Shown: piece after piece, positions 31,340-37,267 of the stretch
Layout: each line of letters opens with the position of its first letter
How positions within the stretch are numbered: the first letter of the stretch is position 1
NCBI GenBank assembly: GCA_010029175.1
Contig: RGNC01000002.1
Location: 1-37,275 of the forward strand
DNA: 37,275 nt
Direction: 5' to 3'
Source of the DNA: Synechococcaceae bacterium WB8_1B_136
GTDB lineage: Bacteria > Cyanobacteriota > Cyanobacteriia > PCC-6307 > Cyanobiaceae
Notes under the pieces: generated by a model
The model's input: only the letters and a program-made list of their open reading frames with translations
Databases searched by the model: none
What the model was told of the DNA's origin: nothing
Made by a program: the position numbers and the translations under genes

Positions 31340-32352
31340 CAGCTCACCACTTTGTCGGCCTGCTTCAGCAGCGCCTCCGGCAACTCCACGCCGATGGCCT
31401 TGGCCGTGGCCTGGCTCACCAGCAGATCGGTCTTGGTGAGAGGTTCGAAGGCCATCGTGGCGGGGGAAGCACCCTTGAGCACCCGCACCGCCAGCTTGCC
31501 GGCCGCGTAGCCGTCGTCGCGGTAGTTCCAGCCGATCACCCCCAGGCAGCCCGGCAGATCGATATCGGGAGGATCCACCGAATACACGGGGATCTTGTTC
31601 TCCAGACCCACCTTGCAGATCGCATTGAAGGCCTGAATGGTGGCGTAATCGCCGATTTTCACGAACGCCTGCACCTGTTTCTCGGCCAGGGCCTGGGCGG
31701 CCTGCAGCACCTCACCGGAATTGGCCACCGACTGTTCCACGATGGTGATGCCGCGCTGGGCCGCCTGCTGTTTGAGGATCTTGGCCTCGTATTCGGAGTT
31801 GGGCTCACCGGGGTTGAAGATCAGGCCCGCGGTTTTCAGCGCCGGATTCACCTGGCGGGCCAGATCCAGCTCCTGGCCCACGGGGTTGGTGCCGATGGTG
31901 CCCACCACATTGGGGCGGTGCTGGCCCACGCCGCCCGGGGGCTTGCCGGCCCCGGCGCCCCAGGGGTTGGAGCAGTAGCAGAAGATCACCGGAACAGACT
32001 CAGGCATCACCTTCATGGCCGCCTGCAGCGGCGGGGTGCCGACGGCCAGCACCATGTCGACCTTCTCGCCCAGAAACTGCTTCATCACCAGGGTGGTGTT
32101 GGGCAGTTCGCCGGCGGCGTCCTTCTGCAGGAAGGTGACGGTTTCGCCATTGCGGTAGCCCGCATCCACCAGGGCCTGGACGAATCCCTCACGGGTGAGG
32201 TTCGGCGGCGGCGCATCCACCATCTGCAGGATGCCGATCAGCGGCCCCTTGCGCGGGGCTCCACCCCCCAAGCGGCCGCAGGCGGCCAGCACCAGGGAAC
32301 TGCCGCCCCCAGCCGCCATCAGAGTGAGGAACTCACGCCGCCCGAAGCTCAT
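31339..32352 (-). CDS. ABC transporter substrate-binding lipoprotein, TrpX/ABC_sub_bind-like
   Basis: Twin-arginine RREFL plus lipobox [66 protein letters not shown]. Confidence 0.88.
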
Positions 32353-33131
32353 ACCAACTCTGGAGATTCGCTGCCAACTGTGCCGCTGCCATAGAGGGCC
32401 CGCAATGCGGCCGGCGTGAACTGTTGCCGCTCGGCGGCGCTCCAGTCGCCGATCAGGCGACCGTCCTGCAACATCACCAGCCGATCCCCGTGGCGCAGGG
32501 CCTGCTCCAGGCTGTGGGTCACCATCAAGGCGGTGGTGCCGAGCCGCGCCACCAGCCGATCGGTGAGCGCCATCACGGTGGCTTCAGCGCGGGGATCGAG
32601 GGCGGCCGTGTGCTCATCCAGCAGCAGCAGGCGCGGCTCCCCCAGGCTGGCCATCACCAGGCTGATGGTCTGCCGCTGGCCGCCGGAGAGCTGGCCGACG
32701 GGGGTATCGATGCGATCCGCCAGGGGCAGACCCAGCTCCTCCAGCAAGGCGGCATAGCGGCGGCGATCGGCGCGGCTGGGGTGAAGGCCCGCCAACCCCC
32801 GCCAGGCAAACAGGGAACGGCGGCGGCACTCCGCCAGCCGCAGGTTCTCGGCGATGGTGAGCCCCGGGGCCGTGCCATCGAGGGGGTTCTGCATCACCCG
32901 GCCGATCCAGCGGGCCCGGCGGTGGTCGCGCATCCCCAGCAGTTCGCGACCCTCCAGCTGCACGGAGCCCCCATCGGCCGCGAGGGTGCCCGCCACCAGG
33001 TTGAGCAAGGTGGATTTGCCGGAGCCGTTGCTGCCGATCACCACCACGAACTGGCCGCTGGGGCAGCTGAGGTTGAAGCCCTCAAACAGCTGCCGCCAAC
33101 CCCCGCCGGGCTGGGCATGGCCCCAGCGCAA
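32349..33131 (-). CDS. ABC transporter ATP-binding protein (TrpZ-like), N-terminus interrupted at the compositional junction
   Basis: VVVIGSNGSGKSTLLNLVAGTL; LSGGQRQTISLVMASLGEPRLLLLDEHTAALDP; only a TTG in frame before a TAG at 33153-33155. Confidence 0.85.
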   Translation of the reverse strand: MRWGHAQPGGGWRQLFEGFNLSCPSGQFVVVIGSNGSGKSTLLNLVAGTLAADGGSVQLEGRELLGMRDHRRARWIGRVMQNPLDGTAPGLTIAENLRLAECRRRSLFAWRGLAGLHPSRADRRRYAALLEELGLPLADRIDTPVGQLSGGQRQTISLVMASLGEPRLLLLDEHTAALDPRAEATVMALTDRLVARLGTTALMVTHSLEQALRHGDRLVMLQDGRLIGDWSAAERQQFTPAALRALYGSGTVGSESPELV

Positions 33132-33462
33132 TCCAGCCGACGACGCCCGGTACTAATGCCGAGATACTGTAATTTTGATTTGCTGTCACCGGTTTCACGA
33201 GCGACACGGCGGCTACTGTGACGCCGTCACGGCTCAAGAGTTGCGAGCCAACGCCCAGAACTACAGTCACAATTCCGGGCGACACCGTAATTGCCTGCAC
33301 GTATAGATATCGTCCGAGCGTGCTAGGAAATCGAATATTGCAGTCAACGAGGATGTCGTCTCTCAGTGTTATGCCGAGATCGTCGTCTCCGGTACTGCGA
33401 TCGTCCAGGGGGTACCGCCTTGTCGACTGCAGGTTGTACCAATTTTGATTGCGTATAGACAT
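33121..33462 (-). CDS. Phage-like hypothetical protein, C-terminus interrupted at the junction
   Basis: MSIRNQNWYNLQSTRRYPLDD...NYSISALVPGVVGWIALG; resembles the N-terminal part of the 35338-36279 protein; the ORF then reads into host-type DNA to 33082. Confidence 0.6.
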
Positions 33463-35334
33463 TTAACACAACCTGGACGCAATGCCGGTAAGATGAAAAT
33501 CGAGTGTAAAATCTGATGTAACGATTGCCGGTGTCGGCTCTGTCGCTGGCGGTTCTGGGATACCGCAGTCAAGCGGAATTGGCTTACCGGTTACAAACGT
33601 GCCGGTCAGTGTTGTTTGAATCTCTATTTTGGCCCGTGCCGAAAACTCTAGTCTAAATTTTACGTAACCGCTGTCGCCCGACTTGAGTTGCGGAAATGGA
33701 ATTAAATAAGTCAGTTGGGCTGGTTTGTTGATTGTGATTGTTTTTGCACTGAGTCCTGGAAAATAAACCTCTGTATAGCCGCACACAACAGTCGCATCAA
33801 TTTCTGCGACGTTTAGCGGCTCAACAGGTGTGCCAAATGTTTCTGCGTTTAATACACTTATAACGAGTTGTAGCGTCGACGCCGGCAAGCAATATTCGCA
33901 GTTGTTGCACACCATAACTGCTACATCAACAAACGGGGCACGTTGCGGAACGACTGCAATTTTTAACGGATTTCGAATTGTGCATTGGCGATACGCGTTC
34001 CACCGCGTGACGTTTATTTCATGAGCACTTTTAACGTCTGTCGCCCGCTGGCCAATTAGTTTGTAGCGGTCTCGCGTATAGTTCATGTACATTGCCGTCG
34101 CAGCATACTCTTCGCAACTGCAGCACGGTTTGCAATCTGCTCCAATTTGTTGCTGTGTGGTTGCTTGGGGTGCAGGAAATGGATTATCCGCGGTATATAC
34201 AGTAGTCCTGCGAATCCAAAGACAATCGCTGGCACTGAATAAGAAATGACCCGCAGTTTTTGGCGTAATGCCATTAATGCTTTTGATGGGATAGTTTATT
34301 TCTGGTTGCGTTGCACACGGATATTTACCTGTGCCCGTCCCGGGTATAGCGTTTAAACTAATTTGTGTTGTGCGGCGAAGTGCTGCAACCGTGGGCGAAC
34401 TGGCAACAATTTCTGTGTTGTAGCCATTGCGGAAAATAAAATTTCCGCGTTGCTGTAGTGTTTGCTGCGTACCGTTTCGCACGCTTAAAGACAGTACGTT
34501 TTTCGGCACGCGATATGTACTGCGGCTGTCGAGCACTGCAGACTCGGGTGCGAGATATTTGTCGTAATGTTTGGCCGCGCCTATTGTCACAATTGGCGGA
34601 AACGGCCAACCTGTGTTATTGACCCAATTTAGTGTCGGCACGCTGTCATTGTTGCCGGCGTTCAATGTAACGCCGGCGGCTGTTTCGGCTGTGTAGGCCC
34701 ACTCCCAACTATTGCTGGTGATACTCGCCGCAATAATCCATTGTTCGCTGCCGATGTCGTAATAAATGTACCAGTCTGACTCAGTGTTTTTGTACGTGGG
34801 TCTGTAGTTGTGTACGCCGTATTTTAAGTAGGTGCCGTTTGCTGGCGTTTGATTTGCGGCACTGACGACAACTAAACCGGATAGCCACGTAGTATACGCA
34901 AGTAACCGACACACTTTTCTATGCGTACGCCACGTATACAGCGTATAATCGTTACCCCATGGGATAATTGTTTCGTCTAATAACGCAGTATCCACGTCTG
35001 TGGTGTCGAAAATGACGTTGTCGGCCGCGTCCAGAATGACAATATCGGCAATTGGTTTTTCTTCGTCCTCGGGAGTCCGCGGCGGATATGTTGCCGGCAC
35101 TGTGTTCTCTACACAGCCGACATTGTAAAGCCGATGAATGCGCAGGGGATACTCGATTGGCTCCGCATCTGGAGCGTAATCGGTGTCGGCGTGCTGCGAA
35201 AAGTAAAAATCGGCTACAAGATAGCGTATGTCGTCAGACGGGTTAACAAACGGGTAGTCCAGTCCGCTTTGCGGCTGAATAACACCCACGCCCTCTCGCC
35301 CGCGGGGCGAAAAAATAAATTCGCTGCAACTCAT
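33463..35334 (-). CDS. Large hypothetical protein, possibly a virion structural protein
   Basis: 623-aa ORF abutting both neighbours; Cys-rich CKPCCSCEEYAATAMYMNYTRDRYKLIGQRATDV; no recognised family. Confidence 0.7.
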   Translation of the reverse strand: MSCSEFIFSPRGREGVGVIQPQSGLDYPFVNPSDDIRYLVADFYFSQHADTDYAPDAEPIEYPLRIHRLYNVGCVENTVPATYPPRTPEDEEKPIADIVILDAADNVIFDTTDVDTALLDETIIPWGNDYTLYTWRTHRKVCRLLAYTTWLSGLVVVSAANQTPANGTYLKYGVHNYRPTYKNTESDWYIYYDIGSEQWIIAASITSNSWEWAYTAETAAGVTLNAGNNDSVPTLNWVNNTGWPFPPIVTIGAAKHYDKYLAPESAVLDSRSTYRVPKNVLSLSVRNGTQQTLQQRGNFIFRNGYNTEIVASSPTVAALRRTTQISLNAIPGTGTGKYPCATQPEINYPIKSINGITPKTAGHFLFSASDCLWIRRTTVYTADNPFPAPQATTQQQIGADCKPCCSCEEYAATAMYMNYTRDRYKLIGQRATDVKSAHEINVTRWNAYRQCTIRNPLKIAVVPQRAPFVDVAVMVCNNCEYCLPASTLQLVISVLNAETFGTPVEPLNVAEIDATVVCGYTEVYFPGLSAKTITINKPAQLTYLIPFPQLKSGDSGYVKFRLEFSARAKIEIQTTLTGTFVTGKPIPLDCGIPEPPATEPTPAIVTSDFTLDFHLTGIASRLC

Positions 35335-35337
35335 TCG

Positions 35338-36279
35338 TTAGCCTGAACAATTGGTATCGCCCAGTCGACTGCCGAGCACGACCAGCCCCATTTGCGTCAC
35401 TTCGGCTCCGAGCCGGGTGACGAAATTTTGCAATGTCGCTACCCCGTCCCCGAATCTGTTAATCTGTGCGGTAATGGCGTCTAATTCAGCACAGCCGCAG
35501 CACGGTGCCGCACATGTATCACTGAGTGCTAATCCGTTCGCAATAGGCTGAATACTGACGCACTCGTCGGCAGAAAATACAAAGGTGCCGTCGTCACTGC
35601 ACACACCGTTGATGCAGCGAATGCACTCGGCTGTATCCGGAAGATTGCAGGCACAATCCTGATTCAGGTTTTCACCTGAAATGGCTTTGAAAATAATTTC
35701 GGTCGGCCCGGCCTCTAATACGTTTACATCGATACGAATATTTGTGCCGGCGACCAATATGACGTCGCCATAAATGTAGTCGCTGGCCTGATTGTTATTT
35801 ATGACTTGCAGCCGCGACACGCCCCGCAAATTAGGCCGAATTGCGTCCGGTTCGATTTCAGCGCCGGTCAGGCTAAACGTGTATGCACCAGCGGGGAGTG
35901 CGTCAATTTCAGTTAATACACCTAACGTAATCTGACCAACTGTGTCAGCAAACTCACCGATGCCGCCAAGTGCATATGTTTGATTGGGTGTGTGGTCTTC
36001 ACGTGGAATGCTTGCTGCCGCGACATCAACTTCTTCGCCGCCGTTGAGGTATGCAACTGTAATATTAAAACCAGTTGGGGCGATGAGCAGTTTTCGAATG
36101 AAGAAATTGGCCGGCGTGGTGACAAGCGTTGCGTTAATGGGCAAATACAGTCCCACAATAAAACTATCGGGGATGCGAATTGTATTGCTGCTGTCAACTT
36201 TACTGGCACGCTCTGTCAGCGGATACGAGCGTTGCGAGTTGTGATTGAGCCATTGTAAATTCCAATTACCGATTGGCAT
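35338..36279 (-). CDS. Hypothetical protein, possibly a virion structural protein
   Basis: 313-aa ORF MPIGNWNLQWLNHNSQRSYPLTERAS...; Cys-rich CAAPCCGCAELDAITAQINRFGDGVATLQNFV. Confidence 0.7.
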   Translation of the reverse strand: MPIGNWNLQWLNHNSQRSYPLTERASKVDSSNTIRIPDSFIVGLYLPINATLVTTPANFFIRKLLIAPTGFNITVAYLNGGEEVDVAAASIPREDHTPNQTYALGGIGEFADTVGQITLGVLTEIDALPAGAYTFSLTGAEIEPDAIRPNLRGVSRLQVINNNQASDYIYGDVILVAGTNIRIDVNVLEAGPTEIIFKAISGENLNQDCACNLPDTAECIRCINGVCSDDGTFVFSADECVSIQPIANGLALSDTCAAPCCGCAELDAITAQINRFGDGVATLQNFVTRLGAEVTQMGLVVLGSRLGDTNCSG

Positions 36280-36286
36280 GGCTCAC

Positions 36287-37267
36287 CTATGGCGTAGTTG
36301 GCTTAAACAGTATCCCGGCAACGCGTAAAACGCCAACTTCTGCTGGATATGCGTCAGCGGAAAGGCGGCCAAGCGTAACTAAAACGGTATCGCCGGCTTC
36401 TACTGTAAACGCCGCACTCTCTCGTTCAATTAATGTCTGCGGCGGTATAACGGCAACGCTATTAAAATTTAACGTGCTGTCCGCTAGTGGTAACGTTATG
36501 CCCGCCGGCGTTGCCGGTCTGGCAATGCGTCGATATGTCATGTACAGCGGCGGCAGTGCTTGGCCAATACCGCCTTGGCCGAAGAAACGTACCCGCAATC
36601 GCATGGCTACATTGTCGCCTAAATAGCCGTCTGGTACGTTAAACCGCATACGTAACAGCGACGCCTGACTAGGCGGAAAACCTAAATACGGAATATCGTT
36701 GAATAGCCGCTCAACCGTATCGCTGAGGCGAATAATTTGCGGCAGTATTTCGCGGTCTACAAACGGGTTGTCAAACGTAAAATTAACGACGCCTTGGTGC
36801 AGTAAAACGTTGTCACCAGCAGGTAAATCAAAATAGTCTTTTTCAATCGTCGTTAATGACCGCTGGCGAGAACTATTGATAGAAACCTGTGCTTGGTTAT
36901 GCACTACAACGCCTTCGGCTACCCAACCTGCTTTTAATTGGTGGTCGTTTACGATTGATTTAAATACTAAACCGCCAGTCGCTTCGCCGGTCGCAGTCTG
37001 CAATGCCAAATTCAGTTCGAGGTCGCCCGTGGTGGCCGGGAGTGCGTCGCAGTTTAATACGCGAATCGGACTATCAATTTCGCCGCTGGTTTGCGGGGCT
37101 AAACTCGTGACAACGCGGCGGTCATTTCCTGTGAGCATTCGTAAAAATACAACCGCTAGCCGCATGGTTTCGTCACGCGGGCATTCTGACACAGCCGTGT
37201 CCGGTTCTTCTACCGGCACAGACGTGTAATCTGCAGGCCAGGGGACATCGCCGTAACAACGGCTCAT
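36287..37267 (-). CDS. Hypothetical protein, possibly a virion structural protein; start is 8 nt from the window edge
   Basis: 326-aa ORF; beta-rich-looking C-terminus FTVEAGDTVLVTLGRLSADAYPAEVGVLRVAGILF. Confidence 0.65.
   Translation of the reverse strand: MSRCYGDVPWPADYTSVPVEEPDTAVSECPRDETMRLAVVFLRMLTGNDRRVVTSLAPQTSGEIDSPIRVLNCDALPATTGDLELNLALQTATGEATGGLVFKSIVNDHQLKAGWVAEGVVVHNQAQVSINSSRQRSLTTIEKDYFDLPAGDNVLLHQGVVNFTFDNPFVDREILPQIIRLSDTVERLFNDIPYLGFPPSQASLLRMRFNVPDGYLGDNVAMRLRVRFFGQGGIGQALPPLYMTYRRIARPATPAGITLPLADSTLNFNSVAVIPPQTLIERESAAFTVEAGDTVLVTLGRLSADAYPAEVGVLRVAGILFKPTTP

Follow-up and report, generated by a model that had tools for sequence, protein, structure and literature searches.

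Two neighboring open reading frames (ORFs) at the end of a contig from Synechococcaceae bacterium WB8_1B_136, coding for proteins of 623 and 313 amino acids, had been read as phage-like and as carrying the same cysteine-rich module. This raises the questions of whether the module is truly shared, what it resembles, and in what kind of element the two proteins reside. The window analysed here is the whole of contig C2 (37,275 nucleotides) from a genome in 357 contigs that is 83% complete; all genes, ORFs and protein segments located below lie on its minus strand.

A cysteine module shared by two proteins

The 623-aa ORF spans positions 33463–35334 and the 313-aa ORF positions 35338–36279, and the peptides quoted for the module in the original prediction were located in these ORFs. 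In the 623-aa protein the module lies in mid-protein, at residues 350–419 (34078–34287), and reads IKSINGITPKTAGHFLFSASDC followed by CKPCCSCEE. In the 313-aa protein, which is built of an N-terminal domain, the module and a coiled coil, it occupies residues 220–275 (35455–35622), where a fibre-like INGV..GTFVFSADEC precedes CAAPCCGCAE. The cysteine cluster is C-x2-CC-x-C in the former (C401, C404, C405 and C407; 34114–34134) and C-x3-CC-x-C in the latter (C256, C260, C261 and C263; 35491–35514).

BLASTP aligned the two proteins with 36.6 bits and an E-value of 9e-7, at 27% identity over 146 columns. Their local alignment score of 80 was reached in none of 3000 shuffles made within 20-residue blocks (shuffle maximum 59), and with all cysteines masked the score of 60 still lay above the shuffle maximum of 52; since the score beats the shuffles even when masked, the similarity is not merely one of shared composition. 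The INGx..CCxC half carries the significance (62 against a shuffle maximum of 55), and the weak similarity upstream of it is not significant alone (441 of 3000 shuffles). Four cysteine pairs fall in exact alignment (C371/C240, C404/C260, C405/C261 and C407/C263, given as 623-aa/313-aa), with a fifth, C401/C256, one residue out of register.

The low identity and the non-significant upstream stretch could be taken as signs that the two modules are alike through convergence or composition, without homology; however, the block shuffles, with or without cysteines, and the equal order and spacing of the elements make this very improbable. As judged from the sequences, the module is genuinely shared by the two proteins, and the expectation of a reusable module with its elements in like order and spacing is borne out. 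From its four or five shared cysteines, the module may be metal-binding or disulfide-linked.

Likeness to a phage tail-fibre motif

A search of phage records with a 24-residue canonical query found the fibre motif SVNGxxPDxxGNVxLxAxDV in 192 records from phages of many hosts, many of them annotated as tail fibre. When the two-row core of the module was compared by hhalign with a profile built from 12 diverse phage sequences, the match had a probability of 93.5% over 23 columns; the best of 300 column-shuffled controls reached 11.6% and none reached 93.5%, a gap that remains large even though the motif was picked after the sequence had been read, which places the true significance below these figures. 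With an HMM of the motif, the 623-aa ORF ranked first among 3893 ORFs of the same genome at a modest score (E 0.13), and the 313-aa ORF by itself gave no significant score. These results partly support a reading in which the first half of the module, [IV]xxINGx..GxFxFSA, would be a cysteine-substituted version of the known fibre motif; C-x(2,3)-CC-x-C-x-E comes after it.

The module had not been recognised as a named family. Searches of Pfam, PHROGs and NCBIfam indeed returned no family for it, but it is not wholly new, since one half appears to be a recurrent fibre motif in variant form. The label phage-like gains indirect support from the match of the module core to this widespread motif, but not from any phage homologue found by sequence: none of the four proteins encoded in the block described below has one in PHROGs or in 50,697 phage records. 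Neither the 623-aa nor the 313-aa protein found a relative in PHROGs, Pfam, NCBIfam, the PDB, phage and plasmid records or the sampled cyanobacterial genomes, scans of genome contigs with both proteins gave none, and the block proteins were not found in a further 397 genomes sampled from the family.

Several matches from these searches were set aside. Weak matches in G001 and G007 were dismissed as chance, as was one in G125, which fell in a GC-rich frame within an unrelated stretch, and one in Vibrio phage qdvp001, which ran antisense to annotated genes. Matches to Mycobacterium, Gordonia and Microbacterium phages and to an elastase in the PDB were weak and are taken as chance, and those to PF12338 and SPP1_Dit were below cut-off. 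An NCBIfam match to PyrI, the regulatory subunit of ATCase, scored 18.3 bits (E 0.0014) where the cut-off is 171; neither Pfam nor the 623-aa ORF gave it again, and it too looks like chance. AlphaFold models of the 313-aa and 326-aa ORFs (pLDDT 36 and 34.5) were too poor to judge, probably because relatives were lacking.

A coiled coil follows the module in one protein

In the 313-aa protein the module runs directly into a heptad stretch at residues 266–301 (35377–35484). Over the 36 residues past CCGCAE, all 11 of the 11 a and d positions are hydrophobic, which none of 5000 shuffles reproduced, and the stretch ranks at the 99.99th percentile of 39,807 segments; a helix is also present here in the low-confidence model. 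By its heptad pattern, this is a predicted coiled coil, dimeric or trimeric. In contrast, the matching stretch after the module of the 623-aa protein has no heptad pattern (3138 of 5000 shuffles). A trimerising helix had been proposed to follow both modules; the helix is thus supported, as a coiled coil, for the 313-aa protein and unsupported for the 623-aa protein.

The module lies in a foreign block at the contig end

Four closely packed ORFs of 326, 313 and 623 aa and a 126-aa frame running into host DNA make up the last 4.1 kb of the window. The contig ends after the three complete foreign ORFs, none of which has a known relative in the libraries searched. An N-terminal domain at residues 7–120 of the 313-aa protein (35920–36261), absent from the original prediction, recurs in the 126-aa frame (BLASTP E 4e-6; 0 of 3000 shuffles). 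This third related ORF (33132–33462) has the N-terminal domain only, at 33142–33450, and is broken at the host junction. An S.R.YPL (SxRxYPL) signature marks the domain in both proteins, and the domain has no family match. Since the N-terminal domain is common to the 313-aa and truncated ORFs, and the cysteine module to the 313-aa and 623-aa ORFs, the block appears from its sequences to be a set of domain-sharing paralogues.

The first gene of the block, the 326-aa ORF (36287–37267), has no family match in the libraries searched. It is beta-rich, with a possible jelly-roll in its C-terminal part according to its low-confidence model, for which Foldseek gave weak jelly-roll-like matches with TM below 0.5 and none at E 0.001 in the PDB. 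These low-confidence matches, which resemble carbohydrate-binding modules, were not used as evidence; this part could be a sugar-binding appendage domain.

On the host side, the coding content agrees with that of a picocyanobacterium: the nearby genes encode the urea transporter UrtA, the urease accessory protein UreG, a TrpX-like substrate-binding protein and an ABC-transporter ATPase. At about 33131, GC content falls from about 0.70 in the host part to 0.49 in the block; over 80 contigs of the genome the mean is 0.68, and just 1% of 1-kb windows lie below 0.52. The 4.1-kb block is low-GC foreign DNA. Its junction with the host lies within the first codons of the ATPase gene, at 33131–33135, as placed by the end of homology, the fall in GC and the gene start found on contig C53, with an uncertainty of about 15 bp because the N-terminal-domain alignment runs a few residues past it.

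The ATPase gene in the window (32349–33131), followed by the TrpX-like gene, is without its first seven codons. Homology to nine ATPase relatives stops at 33126–33131; in these relatives the protein opens with codons ahead of a conserved LxWGH, and in the window the first seven are replaced by the block. The missing start, MSLVVDG, and the upstream permease gene are found on contig C53 of the same genome, where other low-GC DNA again interrupts the ATPase gene past codon 7 (C53:1–261). The two halves of the gene join without loss of a codon, and TGGA is present at both joins. This break at the same codon on two contigs, with matching host halves, suggests that a mobile element or phage truly inserted here, which we consider probable. 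A plain chimera arising from a misjoin at shared k-mers is disfavored by the same-codon break and by the mere 4 bp (TGGA) held in common, but other assembly artefacts may be the source of the junctions. No similarity to the block was found in the roughly 240 bp of foreign DNA on C53, no recombinase gene linked to the block was found, and no overlap between contig ends led to the remainder of the element. The same genome has a further low-GC island on contig C347 (8633–14602), in which a phage-type integrase gene accompanies a gene for a 915-aa surface-type protein with repeats, and no link between it and the block emerged as far as tested.

Discussion

Consideration of the shared module, the fibre likeness and the coiled coil gives a possible role for the two proteins. 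We propose that both serve as structural proteins in an element resembling a tailed phage, most likely within an appendage such as a tail fibre or baseplate decoration, a proposal for which the case and the objections are about evenly balanced. In this scheme, a fibre linker module occurs once in each protein. The INGx..GxFxF half would form a short beta structure at the axis of an oligomer, and the aligned cysteines that follow would clamp this joint through disulfides or a bound metal. In the 313-aa protein, the clamped joint would tie the N-terminal domain to a coiled-coil stalk, and in the 623-aa protein the same joint would be set between other domains. The virion location, the oligomer and the role of the cysteines are the conjectural steps of this scheme. 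The close packing of the four ORFs on a single strand, and the N-terminal domain common to two of them, fit what paralogous appendage proteins would show. Against this stand the failure to find phage homologues for the four proteins, the non-significant score of the 313-aa protein alone, the post hoc choice of the fibre motif and the lack of a helix in the 623-aa protein; in addition, no terminase was found in the genome, though the element is incomplete.

The block could instead be a mobile or surface-protein island of another kind, whose fibre-like motif arose by convergence. The lack of any phage hallmark within the block and of any phage homologue in the collections searched would fit this. 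However, it leaves the profile match to the fibre motif and the paralogous, closely packed ORFs less well explained, and the absence of the block from the other genomes of the family is as expected of a sporadic element; we regard such an island as unlikely. Less remote, though still doubtful, is the view that the cysteines are ligands of a metal or of an iron-sulfur cluster and do not form a disulfide clamp; the module would then be a small metal-binding domain of a virion tip protein and would work in the manner of the lambda gpL C-terminal domain. The four aligned cysteines and their C..CC.C spacing favor metal, as does the precedent of iron-sulfur clusters in the tail tips of lambda and RcGTA (PMC10721106; PMC7296036), but the module has no sequence match to any Pfam metal-binding family, and the NCBIfam match to the ATCase regulatory subunit looks like chance.

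Taken to its furthest extension, the appendage proposal would have an as yet uncharacterised lineage of temperate picocyanobacterial phages that integrate into coding genes, and whose paralogous appendage proteins use one cysteine-clamped fibre joint, so far undescribed, between their different domains. We offer this as speculation that is more probably wrong than right by a wide measure; our overall verdict draws on the statistics of sequence comparison together with a single motif match. If the appendage proposal is right, it would mean that a cysteine-locked joint can arise from a very common fibre linker, and a set of virion proteins wholly missed by current family libraries would gain a testable marker. 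From the reciprocal junctions with host DNA there is also a hint of an integrated element in picocyanobacteria, a group in which, to our knowledge, integrated phages have seldom been documented.

Two known systems invite comparison with the module. In lambda gpL, the iron-sulfur cluster of the tail tip is bound by four cysteines (C173, C182, C205 and C212; PMC10721106), and in the RcGTA hub four cysteines likewise bind such a cluster at the tail tip (PMC7296036); both papers cite Tam et al. (2013) for this iron-binding domain. The module resembles these proteins in its four conserved cysteines, which in gpL and RcGTA lie within a virion tail-tip protein, but its C-x2/3-CC-x-C arrangement with one upstream cysteine differs from the gpL spacing, and it gave no match to the gpL-type iron-sulfur tip family in Pfam, PHROGs or the PDB. 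The fibre motif, as exemplified by the tail fibre of Streptomyces phage Endor2, gp204 of Rhodococcus phage E3 and Pectobacterium phage CBB, shares with the module the order and spacing of [IV]x[SCT][IV]NG, a glycine-bearing turn, alternating hydrophobic residues and [SA]A. Where the fibres carry the valine of DVGA, however, the motif in the module ends in a cysteine, and the PCCxCxE cluster that follows the motif in the module is absent from the translated fibre seed stretches displayed.
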